Part shown: positions 56,491-61,720 of the stretch, one piece after another
How positions within the stretch are numbered: the first letter of the stretch is position 1
Layout of the letters: the number at the start of each line of letters is the position of its first letter
DNA from: Tangfeifania diversioriginum
GTDB lineage: Bacteria; Bacteroidota; Bacteroidia; Bacteroidales; Prolixibacteraceae
Direction: 5' to 3'
DNA length: 64,000 nt
NCBI RefSeq assembly: GCF_900141875.1
Contig: NZ_FQZE01000005.1
Coordinates: 1 to 64,000 of the forward strand
Made by a program: the position numbers and the translations under genes
Notes under the pieces: model-generated
Told to the model about the DNA's origin: nothing
Database searches by the model: none
Seen by the model: only the letters and a program-made list of their open reading frames with translations

Positions 56491-57882
56491 ATGAAACGGT
56501 TTATTTTCCTTACATTTTTATTCGTTGCTGTTATTTTTTCTTCAAAAGCCCAGTTCGAAAATATCGATTTGTCGGAATATAAATTACCTGAAATTGAGCG
56601 GCATCAATTGGATTTTAATTTTAAAAACAATGCAGATTTTACTACTGATTCTTATCAGGATGATCGCAAGTTTTATTTTTTTGATTTGAATAACGAATTG
56701 AATGCAGATTATTCATATTTTTTGAATACCGATAAATTTCAAGTGGAAAGATGGATGAACCTAACTTCAGATCTTCAGTTGGACTGGGGAAAAACGAAAA
56801 ATTTGAAATTTGATAAGGACGACAGATATTACCATTCGTTAAGAGTTGGTTGTATTAGACGTGTTTATCCTCGTCATAATAAATGGTTCTTATCCTTGTC
56901 TCCGGAAATTAATGTTAACAGGTTTGTTTATTACAACAAGAACTTATCAAATTATGATGAAAGTTTGAGTGACAAAACGTATTCACAGGATTTGTATTTT
57001 GCTCCGAAGCTTGAATTTGGTGGAGGTTATGGTAGAATTGAACAGGTTGGGGATTTAAGAAGAGCGATTTATATTCTGGAAGACTTGGGAAAAAATGACA
57101 GATTGGAAAAAATCCCCGGTGAAAATGTGATTTACCAACTGGCAGATAAAGTTGCAGAACTTCGAAATCAGCGCTTTTTTGATTCCCGTTTGCGAAGAAT
57201 TTTTGAGATAAAAAGCCTCGACTCAACACTTACACAATTGGGGCTGGTTGATAAGACGGATGCAACTTATTTCACCTCTTTATACGACATGTGGAGTTAT
57301 GGAAACGAGATGAGATATTCAGGGACACGTATTCAGTTTGACCTGTTAGGAAGGATCGATTATCATTTCAGTAAAACCAGGACGGAAGATTATGATTTTC
57401 AACTTGAAAAGACAGTCACATCTGATAAAAATGATTTCAAAGATAAAGCAGTTGGTGGATCTGTTACGGTTGATTCTTATAAACCTATAAGGTTAAAATG
57501 GCAACGCCATTTTTCTTCAAAGTTATATTTTAATCACTTTTTTATTGATGATACAGATAATAGATTATTGAATGATTATAATACTTTAGCTGCCACAATT
57601 TCTTATGGGTATGATTGGTTTTTAAATACACGTACTCATGCATCATTTGGGGTAGTTGGCCGTTATTATAGATATGATTATAATGAAGGAGATGAGTATA
57701 ATAAAGACCATAACAGAGTCTTTGGTTCTTTTAATGGAGCCTTGCACTATTATTTTTCTCCACGGTTAAAAGCTTCGGTAAACTCGGTTTTGACCCTTAA
57801 TTGGAATGATAATCCTGATATTTCTACTAATAAACAAACCTTTCTTTCCAATCAACTAATAATAAACTATGCTATCTTTTGA
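56491..57882 (+). CDS. predicted outer-membrane protein, same layout as the one at 53079
   Basis: 463 residues from the ATG at 56491 (MKRFIFLTFLFVAVIFSSKAQ, signal 1-21; an ATG at 56431 overlaps the divergent gene and adds non-signal residues). Alternating strands rich in Tyr, Phe and Asn end in NQLIINYAIF, a barrel-like terminus. A central insert (about 170-245) begins GGGYGRIEQVGDLRRAIYILE and continues LADKVAELRNQRFFDSRLRR, parallel to WGRGRLN...AQYLLE...IKHARDAR in the 53079 gene. Base composition is clearly more AT-rich than its neighbours, a hint of transfer. Function unknown. Confidence 0.7.
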   Translation: MKRFIFLTFLFVAVIFSSKAQFENIDLSEYKLPEIERHQLDFNFKNNADFTTDSYQDDRKFYFFDLNNELNADYSYFLNTDKFQVERWMNLTSDLQLDWGKTKNLKFDKDDRYYHSLRVGCIRRVYPRHNKWFLSLSPEINVNRFVYYNKNLSNYDESLSDKTYSQDLYFAPKLEFGGGYGRIEQVGDLRRAIYILEDLGKNDRLEKIPGENVIYQLADKVAELRNQRFFDSRLRRIFEIKSLDSTLTQLGLVDKTDATYFTSLYDMWSYGNEMRYSGTRIQFDLLGRIDYHFSKTRTEDYDFQLEKTVTSDKNDFKDKAVGGSVTVDSYKPIRLKWQRHFSSKLYFNHFFIDDTDNRLLNDYNTLAATISYGYDWFLNTRTHASFGVVGRYYRYDYNEGDEYNKDHNRVFGSFNGALHYYFSPRLKASVNSVLTLNWNDNPDISTNKQTFLSNQLIINYAIF

Positions 57883-57918
57883 TATTACTTTTGTTTAGTT
57901 AGCTGTTTCCTGCCTTTT

Positions 57919-57935
57919 TGTCACCGGATTTGACA
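57919..57935. promoter_or_regulatory. inverted repeat upstream of dnaK (candidate activator site)
   Basis: TGTCA and TGACA flank a 7-base spacer, and a further half site TGTCA is at 57964-57968. The repeat lies about 65-80 bases upstream of a sigma-54-like promoter, where an enhancer-binding activator would sit. The HrcA-type CIRCE repeat was not seen. Confidence 0.5.
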
Positions 57936-57998
57936 AGCTGAAATCCGATTTCAGGCCATTTTGTGTCAGATTTTCGTTAAAACCATCATCTTTTCAGG

Positions 57999-58014
57999 TG
58001 GCACAATGATTGAA
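57999..58014 (+). promoter_or_regulatory. sigma-54-like promoter of dnaK
   Basis: TGGCACAATGATTGAA compares with the -24/-12 consensus TGGCACR-N4-TTGCW: the -24 box is perfect, the spacing exact, and only the C of TTGC is replaced by A. A start would lie near 58026, 36 bases before the ATG. Confidence 0.6.
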
Positions 58015-58061
58015 TAGTATGCATCGAAATTTTAGAAATAATTCATTAAAAAAATATACTA

Positions 58062-60005
58062 ATGGGAAAAATAATTGGAATAGACTTAGGAACTACCAAC
58101 TCATGCGTATCGGTAATGGAAGGTAATGAGCCTGTTGTAATCCCCAACAGCGAAGGAAAACGAACAACTCCTTCAATTGTGGCTTTTATTGAAAATGGGG
58201 AACGCAAAATTGGCGACCCCGCCAAACGTCAGGCTATTACCAATCCCGAGAAGACCGTTTCTTCAATCAAACGCTTCATGGGAGAAACCTACGACAGAGT
58301 ATCAAAAGAGGTAAGCAGGGTTCCGTACAAAGTAATTAAGGGAGATAATAATACGCCAAGGGTTCAGATTGATGACCGTAACTATTCACCGCAGGAAATT
58401 TCGGCAATGGTGCTTCAGAAAATGAAGAAAACTGCCGAAGATTACCTGGGACAGGAAGTGAGTGAAGCCGTAATTACTGTGCCTGCCTATTTTAGCGACT
58501 CACAACGTCAGGCAACAAAAGAAGCAGGCGAAATTTCCGGCCTCACAGTTAAACGTATTATCAACGAACCAACTGCCGCATCACTTGCTTACGGTTTGGA
58601 TAAGCAAGACAAAGACATGAAAATTGCCGTTTTCGACCTTGGTGGAGGTACTTTCGATATTTCCATCCTTGAGTTGGGCGACGGCGTTTTCGAAGTAAAA
58701 TCGACCGACGGTGACACGCACCTTGGGGGCGACGATTTTGACCAGGTGATTATTGACTGGCTGGCCGAAGAGTTTAAAAAAGACGAAGGCGTTGACCTAA
58801 AACGCGACGCAATGGCACTGCAGCGTTTGAAAGAAGCTGCCGAAAAAGCCAAAATCGAGCTGTCGAGCTCAACATCTACCGAAATTAACCTGCCCTACAT
58901 TATGCCGGTTGACGGTGTGCCAAAACACCTGGTGAAAACGTTATCACGCTCTAAATTCGAACAACTTTCTGATACGTTGGTGAATGCCACCATCGAACCA
59001 TGCCGCAAGGCACTGAAAGGTGCTGGAATTTCTGCCAGCGAAATTGATGAGGTTATCCTGGTAGGTGGTTCAACCCGTATCCCGGCCGTACAGGAAAAAG
59101 TAAAAAGTTTCTTCGGCAAAAATCCATCGAAAGGAGTAAATCCTGACGAAGTGGTTGCCGTTGGTGCAGCTATTCAGGGCGGTGTTTTAACCGGTGAAGT
59201 AAAAGATGTACTGCTGCTGGATGTTACCCCGCTTTCACTGGGTATTGAAACCATGGGCGGTGTAATGACCAAATTAATTGAGGCCAATACCACCATTCCA
59301 ACCAAAAAATCGGAAACATTTACTACTGCCGCTGATAACCAGCCTTCAGTTGAAATTCACGTGTTGCAGGGCGAGCGCCCAATGGCATCGGGGAATAAAA
59401 CCATCGGACGGTTCCACCTCGATGGAATTCCGCCAGCCCCGCGTGGAGTACCACAAGTTGAAGTGTCGTTCGATATCGATGCCAACGGTATTTTGCATGT
59501 TCACGCTAAAGACAAGGCAACAGGAAAATCGCAGTCAATTCGTATCGAAGCTTCTTCCGGCTTGTCGGAAGACGAAATTAAGCGGATGAAAGAAGAAGCT
59601 GAAGCCAATGCCGAAGCCGATAAACAGGCCAAAGAAAAAGTGGATAAAATGAACCAGGCCGACAGTTTGATTTTCCAGACTGAAAAACAGCTGAAAGATT
59701 ACGGCGACAAAATTCCGGCTGATAAGAAAAAGCCAATTGAAGATGCATTGGCCAAACTGAAAGAAGCGCATAAAAACCAGGATATAGCAGCTATTGATTC
59801 ATCAATGGAAGAACTGAACAAAGTATTCTCTGCTGCTTCTCAGGAAATGTACAATGCGCAGCAAGCCGAGGGTGGCCAGCAGGCAGGTCCGCAGGGCGGA
59901 CAGGCAGGACCACAGGGTGGTCAGCAGCAAGGCGGCCAGCAAGGTGGCGGCAATGATAAAGACGACGGTGAAGTAACCGACGTTGATTTTGAAGAAGTGA
60001 AATAA
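58062..60005 (+). CDS. dnaK: molecular chaperone DnaK (Hsp70)
   Basis: 647 residues. Nucleotide-binding domain with [16 protein letters not shown], the second phosphate loop [15 protein letters not shown] and [11 protein letters not shown]; substrate domain with [16 protein letters not shown]; helical lid; Gln/Gly-rich tail (about 605-632, [13 protein letters not shown]) ending DVDFEEVK. It folds and protects proteins with DnaJ and GrpE, neither of which is encoded nearby. Preceded by a sigma-54-like promoter and followed by a strong terminator. Confidence 0.98.
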
Positions 60006-60240: not shown

Positions 60241-61191
60241 TTATATCCTGATGTTCGTATCCACAATCCAGTTGGTGGGCTGTTTTTTCATGCGCTGCGG
60301 AATGTTTTTTAAAATCGAATCCTGCAGCACTTTTATCCGTCGCTCACCCGCATAATTTTTCAGGGTAACCACACTGATTTCGCGGGTCGGCTGATCTTCT
60401 GAAAACGCTTTGATTAAATCTTCCTGCTCTGCCGAAACATTAATGGTGGCCAGTTCCGGAATAAAAGTGATACCGCCCTTATTTTCCACAATCCGGCGCA
60501 GCGATTCTATTGAGTTGCTGCGGTAAACCAGATTTTGATTGGCCTGCTCCTGGTAGTTGATTTTGCAAATGGAGTTCACCTGGTTTTGGAAGCAGTTTCC
60601 TTCTTCAAGGTACCAGATTTCTTCCTCATTCAAATCGGCTATTTTGAGTTCATTTGTGTGGCAAAGCGGGTGATTGGGTGAAATGTAGGCATAAAACCGT
60701 TCGTAAAAAAGCGGTTTGAAATCGATTCCGATAGCACTTAACGGAGTGGAAAGAATGCCGCAATCGAGATTGCCCATTTTTAATTCATGAATAATTTCTT
60801 CTGTTTTAAGTTCGCTGATTTCAACCTGTAGCTGCGGGTAGTTTTTATTCAAATCGTTAATGAACATCGGAACAAGATAAGGCGCCAAAGTGGGAATAAT
60901 TCCAATTTTCAAATTGCCAGAGATTTGTTCCCCCATGTCGGTAGTTACTTTGTTCAGCTCCTGAAATTTCAGTAAAATGTCCACCGTTTTCTGGTAAAAC
61001 ACCTCACCTTCAGATGTTAACTCAAGCGGGCGTTTCCGGCGGTCGAGCAGCCGGAATCCAATTTCCTTTTCCAGCTTTGCGATTTGCAAACTTAATGCGG
61101 GTTGTGTGATTTGTAGTTTTTTTGCTGCAACAGAAAAACTGCCAAATTGAACCAATGTTTTTAAATATTCCAGCTGATTAATATTAAGCAT
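60241..61191 (-). CDS. oxyR: LysR-type regulator, OxyR-like
   Basis: 316 residues. N-terminal winged helix 1-60 (INQLEYLKTLVQFGSFSVAAKKLQITQPALSLQIAKLEKEIG in parts, e.g. FGSFSVAAKKLQITQPALS) and a periplasmic-binding-like effector domain 90-300. Cys in LDCGILST and in EGNCFQNQVNSICKINY (two cysteines about ten residues apart, near 199 and 208) fit the peroxide-sensing disulfide of OxyR. It is divergent from dps with an 88-base shared control region, which supports the call; OxyR activates dps in many bacteria. Confidence 0.87.
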   Translation of the reverse strand: MLNINQLEYLKTLVQFGSFSVAAKKLQITQPALSLQIAKLEKEIGFRLLDRRKRPLELTSEGEVFYQKTVDILLKFQELNKVTTDMGEQISGNLKIGIIPTLAPYLVPMFINDLNKNYPQLQVEISELKTEEIIHELKMGNLDCGILSTPLSAIGIDFKPLFYERFYAYISPNHPLCHTNELKIADLNEEEIWYLEEGNCFQNQVNSICKINYQEQANQNLVYRSNSIESLRRIVENKGGITFIPELATINVSAEQEDLIKAFSEDQPTREISVVTLKNYAGERRIKVLQDSILKNIPQRMKKQPTNWIVDTNIRI

Positions 61192-61198
61192 AAGTAAA

Positions 61199-61244
61199 CT
61201 TTATAGTTATATAAAGATAGAAAATATAATTAATAGTATCTTTG
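61199..61244. promoter_or_regulatory. oxyR-dps control region
   Basis: CTTTATA-GTTA-TATAAAG (61199-61216) is a perfect inverted repeat next to the oxyR start. AAAGATA (61213-61219) and TATCTTT (61237-61243) form a second one, and the latter lies in TATCTTTG (61237-61244), a TAnnTTTG -7 box for dps. No TTTG stands at -33, as is usual for activated promoters. Three ATAG steps at 61203, 61217 and 61233 resemble OxyR half sites. Confidence 0.5.
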
Positions 61245-61279
61245 AAGTATTGAATAACAAAACAAAAAAATCAATAATT

Positions 61280-61720
61280 ATGAGTACAAAAAATCAAAAA
61301 TTAGTTGACGAATTAAACGGCCTGCTGGCTGATTATCAAATTTTTTATCAGAATTTAAGAGGATTGCACTGGAATGTAAAAGGGGCCCAGTTTTTTTCAC
61401 TGCACGAAAAGTACGAAGAGCTGTACAACGAAACAGCCGATGTTGTGGACGAAATTGCTGAACGTATTTTAATGGTTGAAGGACAGCCATTGCACACGTT
61501 TGCCGACTATGTGAAAGTTTCCGATTTGAAAGAAGCCGGAACCGTTACAGATGGTAGCGAAGGCGTAAAGATTGTTCTCGACAACAGCCAGGCATTGCTG
61601 AAAAAATTGTACGAAGTACTTGAAACCGCCGACGGCGATGAAGGAACTTCAGCTTTGCTCGGTGATTTAATCGGAGCCACCGAAAAACGCATCTGGATGC
61701 TGAAATCGTGGCTCGGCTAA
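61280..61720 (+). CDS. dps: Dps family ferritin-like DNA protection protein
   Basis: 146 residues from the ATG at 61280; an upstream TTG at 61250 would lie at the transcription start and is not credible. Four-helix bundle with the Dps ferroxidase site: H in FYQNLRGLHWNVKGAQFFSLHEKYEELYNE (in parts, LRGLHWNVKGAQFFSLH), D and E in ADVVDEIAERI. Dps oligomers oxidise iron with peroxide and shield DNA. It is divergent from and probably activated by OxyR. A terminator follows. Confidence 0.95.
   Translation: MSTKNQKLVDELNGLLADYQIFYQNLRGLHWNVKGAQFFSLHEKYEELYNETADVVDEIAERILMVEGQPLHTFADYVKVSDLKEAGTVTDGSEGVKIVLDNSQALLKKLYEVLETADGDEGTSALLGDLIGATEKRIWMLKSWLG

Follow-up and report, generated by a model that had tools for sequence, protein, structure and literature searches.

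The region ahead of dnaK in the window, the 64,000-nucleotide stretch of the 4.78-Mb genome of Tangfeifania diversioriginum analysed here, is probably a sigma-54-type promoter of a heat-shock regulon of the Bacteroidia, with an enhancer-binding protein (bEBP) that lacks a receiver domain, designated bEBP-A, as the candidate activator at helically phased boxes. The gene (58062..60005 on the plus strand, starting at ATG 58062) encodes a 647-aa protein with the Pfam HSP70 domain (PF00012, E 8e-264), whose best named match, from a Draconibacterium MAG, is 86% identical. Within the 179 bases that separate the upstream open reading frame (its stop ends at 57882) from the dnaK ATG, an earlier note on this DNA had recognised two motifs, TGGCAC-N5-TTGAA and TGTCA-N7-TGACA, and both hold, in letters and in position, on re-reading of the sequence. 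The core at 57999-58014 (TGGCACAATGATTGAA; TGGCAC-AATGA-TTGAA) consists of a -24 element, TGGCAC (57999..58004, plus strand, with GG at 58000-58001), which is conserved in relatives, and a -12 element, TTGAA (58010..58014, plus strand, with G -13 at 58012 and A -12 at 58013); the palindrome (TGTCACCGGATTTGACA) occupies 57919-57935. The GG of the -24 element and the G at -13 have the standard sigma-54 spacing (TGGCAC-N5-TTG, 57999-58012), and the bases at -13/-12 are GA instead of the consensus GC, so that the -12 box reads TTGA instead of TTGC, the one-base departure already pointed out in that note. Because GC at -13/-12 is missing here and in most of the relatives, the promoter is classified, from its sequence, as a variant of the sigma-54 type. 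A transcription start is predicted at 58025 (plus strand), 12 bases on from the -12 base at 58013 according to sigma-54 promoter spacing, and would leave a leader of 37 bases. No TAnnTTTG box, the -7 element of the Bacteroidota housekeeping promoter, is found between 57883 and 58061, and the claim that both this box and CIRCE are missing ahead of dnaK agrees with the situation among relatives, where neither is enriched: TAnnTTTG occurs in 15 of 98 related dnaK upstream regions against 16.4 in shuffles, and CIRCE in none of the 98, the window's own included.

Judged from related sequences, neither the core nor the palindrome is a chance occurrence. TGGCAY-N5-TTG is present in 92 of the 98 related dnaK upstream regions (0.16 in dinucleotide shuffles) and the palindrome TGTCA-N7-TGACA in 17 (0.04 in shuffles), and the degenerate pattern [TC]GG[TC]A[CT]-N5-TTG, in which GG and G -13 are fixed by the search pattern, matches 97 of the 98. 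In these 97 regions TTG is followed by A 62 times, by T 21 times, by C 13 times and by G once; the missing -12 C, absent from 84 of 97, is a trait of the relatives generally and not peculiar to this genome. In the loci of the named relatives, which are the best 80 of 578 and therefore weighted to close kin, a bias that the class draw described below lacks, the core stands ahead of 71 of 78 dnaK genes and of 1 of 242 other genes. The counts over 98 upstream regions are based on 98 of 110 dnaK loci, with ten minus-strand loci, L022 and L108 left out; eight of the ten minus-strand loci (all except L013 and L030) were restored in a larger set of 155, which was reduced to 144 non-redundant upstream regions by taking out four near-duplicates and seven regions without the strict core, six of which read CGGCA-N6-TTG and the seventh, L028, TGGCATAATCTCTG. 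Within this genome, TGGCAY-N4-ATTG has 20 matches and the reversed pattern, as a control, 19; the argument therefore depends on conservation and position and not on the frequency of the pattern in a single genome. Four of the 20 matches fall outside open reading frames of at least 110 aa, three of them ahead of dnaK, lon and a thioredoxin/glutaredoxin-like gene that precedes a second groES. The fourth intergenic match (G000:C68:12150-12163, L129) is located before a gene that is lipoprotein-like by eye and has no Pfam match. As a genome-wide finder the pattern was dropped, since it shows no excess over the reversed control and misses the grpE and groES sites of the same genome, which have differing bases.

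The earlier note had taken the palindrome for the upstream activator site. The palindrome is real and enriched, but it is part of a larger enhancer that the note had missed and that comprises a main box, TGCC-TTTT-TGTC (57911..57922, plus strand), 76 bp before the T of TGGCAC, and a second, weaker box, TGTC-AGAT-TTTC (57964..57975, plus strand), 23 bp before TGGCAC, which places it five turns of the helix away from the main box; the left half of the palindrome (57919..57935, no strand assigned) is shared with the main box. An inverted repeat, TGAAATC-C-GATTTCA, is also present at 57939-57953, between the two boxes. Among the 144 non-redundant dnaK upstream regions, the strongest dyad ahead of the core is the direct repeat TGTC-N4-TGTC (47 regions versus 0.4 in shuffles), followed by TGAC-N4-TGTC (30 versus 0.35), TGCC-N4-TGTC (24 versus 0.2) and TGTC-N9-GACA (20 versus 0.1). 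The combined box TG[TCA]C-N4-TGTC occurs in 103 of the 144, neither box type being found in 27, and in the loci of the named relatives it lies ahead of 52 of 78 dnaK genes versus 1 of 242 other genes.

The distances from box to -24 element cluster near 13, 24, 33, 44, 55, 66, 76 and 87 bp, and, when periods from 6 to 16 are compared, the strongest periodicity is found at 10.5 bp (R 0.806 for the 100 boxes no more than 100 bp from the -24 element), the maximum R of 10,000 uniform nulls being 0.31. When the set is thinned to at most two boxes per distance (n = 47), R is 0.70, a value that none of 10,000 nulls reaches, and boxes in reverse orientation (n = 19) give R 0.968 with a phase about 1 bp off. 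Control words are phased too (R 0.27-0.48, and 0.59 for TGTCA outside the box), so the phasing is in part a general property of the region. The second, weaker box lies at 23 bp in 29 of the 41 of its type within 100 bp, and its spacing to the main box is 52-54, or five turns, in 20 of 29 pairs; in some genomes TGNC-N4-TGTC boxes come as near as -51 to -40. These spacings indicate that the boxes, which go beyond the palindrome first noticed, lie on one face of the helix.

Similar sites precede other chaperone genes. TGGCA-N6-TTG is found ahead of grpE in 25 of 25 genomes of relatives (0.03 in shuffles), and a search of groES upstream regions for the dnaK pattern, proposed in the earlier note, recovered a looser site, TGG[CT]A-N6-[TAC]TG, at 16 of 23 primary groES genes (1.0 in shuffles). 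Of the seven misses, four have GTG and three have other bases at -12, behind TGGCAC or TGGTAC; a TTGGCA- or TTTGG[CT]A-type site is present at 22 of the 23, with TG at -14/-13 in 18 of these 22, and groES sites thus vary more at -12 than dnaK sites do. These counts cover 23 of 30 groES loci, those left out (L192-L198) being second copies and one strong match of G009, and second groES copies have a site directly upstream in only one case of seven. In this genome the sites read TGGCAAATTTTTTGTTAA at grpE, TGGCACAGAATATGATTA at groES and TGGCATGGCTATTGCCAG at lon, the product of which has a Pfam LON domain, and the thioredoxin/glutaredoxin-like gene ahead of the second groES has its own -24/-12-type site, TGGCACAACAATTGTTAC. 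The second groES and the thioredoxin/glutaredoxin-like gene before it are found at G000:C66:44146-45625 (L128, L197). Of 16 boxes ahead of grpE, 15 are 13-14 bp from the -24 element, on the same helix face as the dnaK boxes; those ahead of groES are mostly found at 124-127 or 133 bp, distances that do not match the phase of the dnaK boxes. No strict box is found at lon or the second groES of this genome.

The range of this arrangement was followed in a draw of 198 genomes of the phylum, each at least 95% complete, that comprised the window's own genome, 49 others of its class and 148 of other classes, the class being taken as GTDB Bacteroidia from the organisms among the named DnaK relatives. 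The gene rpoN, whose absence the earlier note had named as an argument against its reading, occurs once in this genome (G000:C33, E 1.3e-53) and in all 198 genomes drawn, which made a comparison of genomes with and without rpoN impossible. HrcA is matched in 111 of the 198, all of them among the 148 genomes of other classes and none among the 50 of the class, this genome included. The dnaK core TGG[CT]A-N6-TTG is present in 46 of the 49 other class members, and in all 49 if C is allowed for the first T, the remaining three reading CGGCA-N6-TTG. Among 40 genomes picked from the 148 of other classes, it is found in 4 of 21 without HrcA and 3 of 19 with HrcA. In this sample, the class is thus without HrcA and has a sigma-54-type dnaK promoter throughout. 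The pattern TGGCAC-N5-TTG also occurs at dnaK in L290, L291 and L292, which belong to another class (family f28, no HrcA match). HrcA/CIRCE and sigma-32 control the same heat-shock genes elsewhere. The Bacteroidia differ from the HrcA/CIRCE systems in that HrcA is matched in 0 of 50 class genomes and CIRCE in 0 of 98 dnaK upstream regions.

The proposed heat-shock activator, bEBP-A (414 aa, G000:C43:63710-64951), consists of an AAA+ domain with a GAFTGA loop, a linker helix and a Fis-type HTH, with no receiver domain. Its AAA+ domain matches PF00158 at E 6.4e-70, as expected of a protein that interacts with sigma-54, the GAFTGA loop is invariant in 15 aligned orthologues, and the HTH (PF02954, E 1.8e-13) spans residues 370-410. 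PF00158 is matched 11 times in the genome at E<=0.001; some of these matches are not bEBPs, since all 14 control genomes also match this family at the same threshold. bEBP-A is matched in all 50 class members at E 6.6e-120 or better; identity in the 49 others is 56-67%, and in two of these the match covers the first 315 residues only. Homologues at E<=1e-85 are present in 119 of 148 other-class genomes, the best (8.2e-118) being near the class worst and identity being at most 49% where full-length, among the matches listed; as homologues are common outside the class, distribution alone does not tie bEBP-A to the promoter.

A closer tie is provided by three genomes, G154 (100% complete), G026 (99%) and G033 (88%), each with one PF00158 match at E<=1e-20, which in each case is the bEBP-A orthologue (58%, 63% and 61% identity, respectively), the match running through the HTH. 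All three keep the dnaK site (CGGCACGGTGATTGAA, TGGCACGCTGTTTGAA and TGGCACAACTATTGAT, respectively), and the G033 upstream region keeps a full box, TGAC-ATTT-TGTC. Since sigma-54 requires a bEBP and one was detected in each genome, bEBP-A must be able to serve dnaK there, on condition that sigma-54 does use these sites and that no further bEBP has been missed, and it is from these genomes that binding of bEBP-A to the TGNC-N4-TGTC boxes is inferred. The gene lptE follows bEBP-A in 42 of 42 loci compared, some of which are two views of one genome, and the order bEBP-A-lptE-TPR-secG-groES-groEL is found in 7 of the 9 other genomes in which the sequence was followed well beyond secG; groESL is located elsewhere, not behind secG, in G154, G026 and this genome. 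Here, bEBP-A-lptE-TPR-secG lies about 86 kb from groES (C43:150774-151019).

PspF, the phage-shock activator, drives a stress regulon through sigma-54, and bEBP-A resembles it in having an AAA+ domain and a Fis HTH and no receiver. The two differ in that bEBP-A has about 100 residues between the AAA+ lid and the HTH, including residues 285-304 (EREILYKxLFDMKxDxxDLKK), which are largely invariant and might, as a guess, be the place of a regulatory contact. bEBP-A scores 275.7 bits against the PspF equivalog TIGR02974, for which the cut-off is 443.55, and reaches no cut-off among the 25 NCBIfam families shown. The AlphaFold model of bEBP-A is poor (mean pLDDT 67.4, below 50 at residues 75-109, 265-287 and 313-368) and carries no argument.

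Under the proposed mechanism, the sigma-54 polymerase would sit on TGGCAC-N5-TTGA as a closed complex, and bEBP-A, bound to the TGNC-N4-TGTC boxes that face the polymerase, would remodel it and bring about opening. Lacking a receiver domain, bEBP-A probably responds to a protein-folding signal that restrains or feeds it, perhaps chaperone titration at the linker, such that unfolded protein would free or stabilise bEBP-A. The closed complex and its opening rest on sequence and known sigma-54 biology, and the signal is a conjecture. The assignment of dnaK to RpoN and an enhancer-binding protein, made in the earlier note, gains support from the conserved core, the presence of rpoN and mapped starts in Flavobacterium psychrophilum (PMC9723704, in the portion available); sigma-54 use at this particular dnaK, its induction by heat and the identity of the activator are presumptive.

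Several of the observations above weigh against the proposal of bEBP-A at phased boxes: the -12 C missing from most relatives, the more variable groES sites, the dnaK upstream regions with neither box type, the off-phase groES boxes, the phasing of control words, the occurrence of bEBP-A homologues outside the class, its distance from groES in this genome and the lack of a strict box at lon and the second groES. Other explanations have to be considered as well. That the motifs are chance occurrences or belong to a housekeeping promoter is hardly credible: the short pattern is about as frequent in this genome as its reversed control (20 versus 19), and against this stand the comparison with shuffles (92 of 98 versus 0.16), that with other genes (71 of 78 versus 1 of 242), the lack of TAnnTTTG enrichment and the conservation of the core in the class draw, which already contradict this reading. 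It is unlikely that the promoter depends on sigma-54 but is served by another activator, for example bEBP-B (G000:C49, L162:7009-8181) acting from solution, with bEBP-A reserved for other genes. Of the 50 class members, 47 have a match to bEBP-B, which possesses, besides its AAA+ domain, a receiver, so that it could take a signal, and in G003, G024, G029 and G031 PF00158 matches resembling it in size (frames of 383-420 aa) are located 4-6.5 kb from dnaK or grpE. It was considered as the dnaK activator for these size-like matches and set aside, because G056, G154 and G217, whose dnaK sites persist, have no match to it at E<=1e-100; its loop is GAFTSA and, having no HTH or other DNA-binding domain by Pfam, it cannot explain the phased boxes. 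Among the matches listed, the frames of bEBP-B matches are in many cases shorter within the class (387-529 aa) than in other classes (mostly about 450-580 aa), and the HTH of bEBP-B may have been lost in Bacteroidia.

Slightly more doubtful is the reading in which some regulator other than a bEBP occupies the TGNC boxes and cooperates with a bEBP that works without a site of its own. Such a regulator would suit the strongest dyad, a direct repeat (47 of 144), since the sites of Fis-type bEBPs are usually palindromic, and also those boxes that are only 12-14 bp from the -24 element; the inverted partner TGACA is enriched too, however, and in G154, G026 and G033, each with one bEBP detected, the bEBP-A match spans the HTH, with the full box retained in G033. 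Activators without a DNA-binding domain do occur in Bacteroidetes, according to the available portion of PMC3372290, and this architecture, that of the FlgR-type activators, is shared by bEBP-B and not by bEBP-A, the activator preferred here.

Sigma-54-type promoters at chaperone genes of Bacteroidota are known in kind and already in print (PMC9723704, PMC12316311; both available in part). In F. psychrophilum, the mapped starts of dnaK, groES, grpE, htpG, clpB and lon carry a motif, SM4, that has been assigned to sigma-54, so that four of the genes treated here (dnaK, groES, grpE and lon) stand behind -24/-12 elements known from mapped 5' ends (PMC9723704). In contrast to the present analysis, that work deals with one species, and its accessible text names no enhancer sequence and no activator, mentions three PF00158 proteins that might serve distinct clusters, and does not list heat among the inducing conditions (PMC9723704). 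The predicted sigma-54 regulon of Bacteroidota has been reported to be enriched in the DnaK, DnaJ, GrpE, GroEL and GroES families in a survey of motif enrichment that, in its accessible part, differs from the present work in giving no enhancer or activator for the chaperone genes and no link to HrcA, and that lists E. coli sigma-54 promoters deviating at -13/-12 (PMC12316311). The same survey describes GrpE of B. thetaiotaomicron and F. psychrophilum and GroES of B. thetaiotaomicron as sigma-54 dependent, citing its reference 80, a Blattabacterium genome paper; the available portions of the B. thetaiotaomicron atlas (PMC10994844) and of a 2011 sigma-54 comparison (PMC3162934) contain no such statement. 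What appears to be new is the phased arrangement of the enhancer, the departure at -12 and the assignment of an activator; the boxes, their phasing and the activator are not named in the titles and abstract openings returned by a literature search that covered few subscription journals.

A broader proposition, for which the chances seem about even, is that throughout the Bacteroidia a single receiver-less bEBP and sigma-54 run the heat-shock response in place of HrcA and sigma-32, that the boxes, often promoter-proximal, must share one helix face, unlike classic distant enhancers, and that the conserved linker helix is the part of the bEBP by which unfolded protein is sensed. If true, this would explain why no class genome examined lacks rpoN, and it would offer a reason for the presence of rpoN in all 198 genomes searched; it would also be a further example of sigma-54 activation from sites that are close and helically phased. 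For the Bacteroidia, among which are many bacteria of the gut and the sea and for which no named heat-shock master regulator was found, the analysis yields one candidate activator, its putative DNA boxes and a proposed spacing rule. On the 3' side of dnaK (60241-61717), a gene for a LysR-family regulator and a divergent ferritin-like gene, Dps-type by eye, are located, which are perhaps an oxidative-stress pair.
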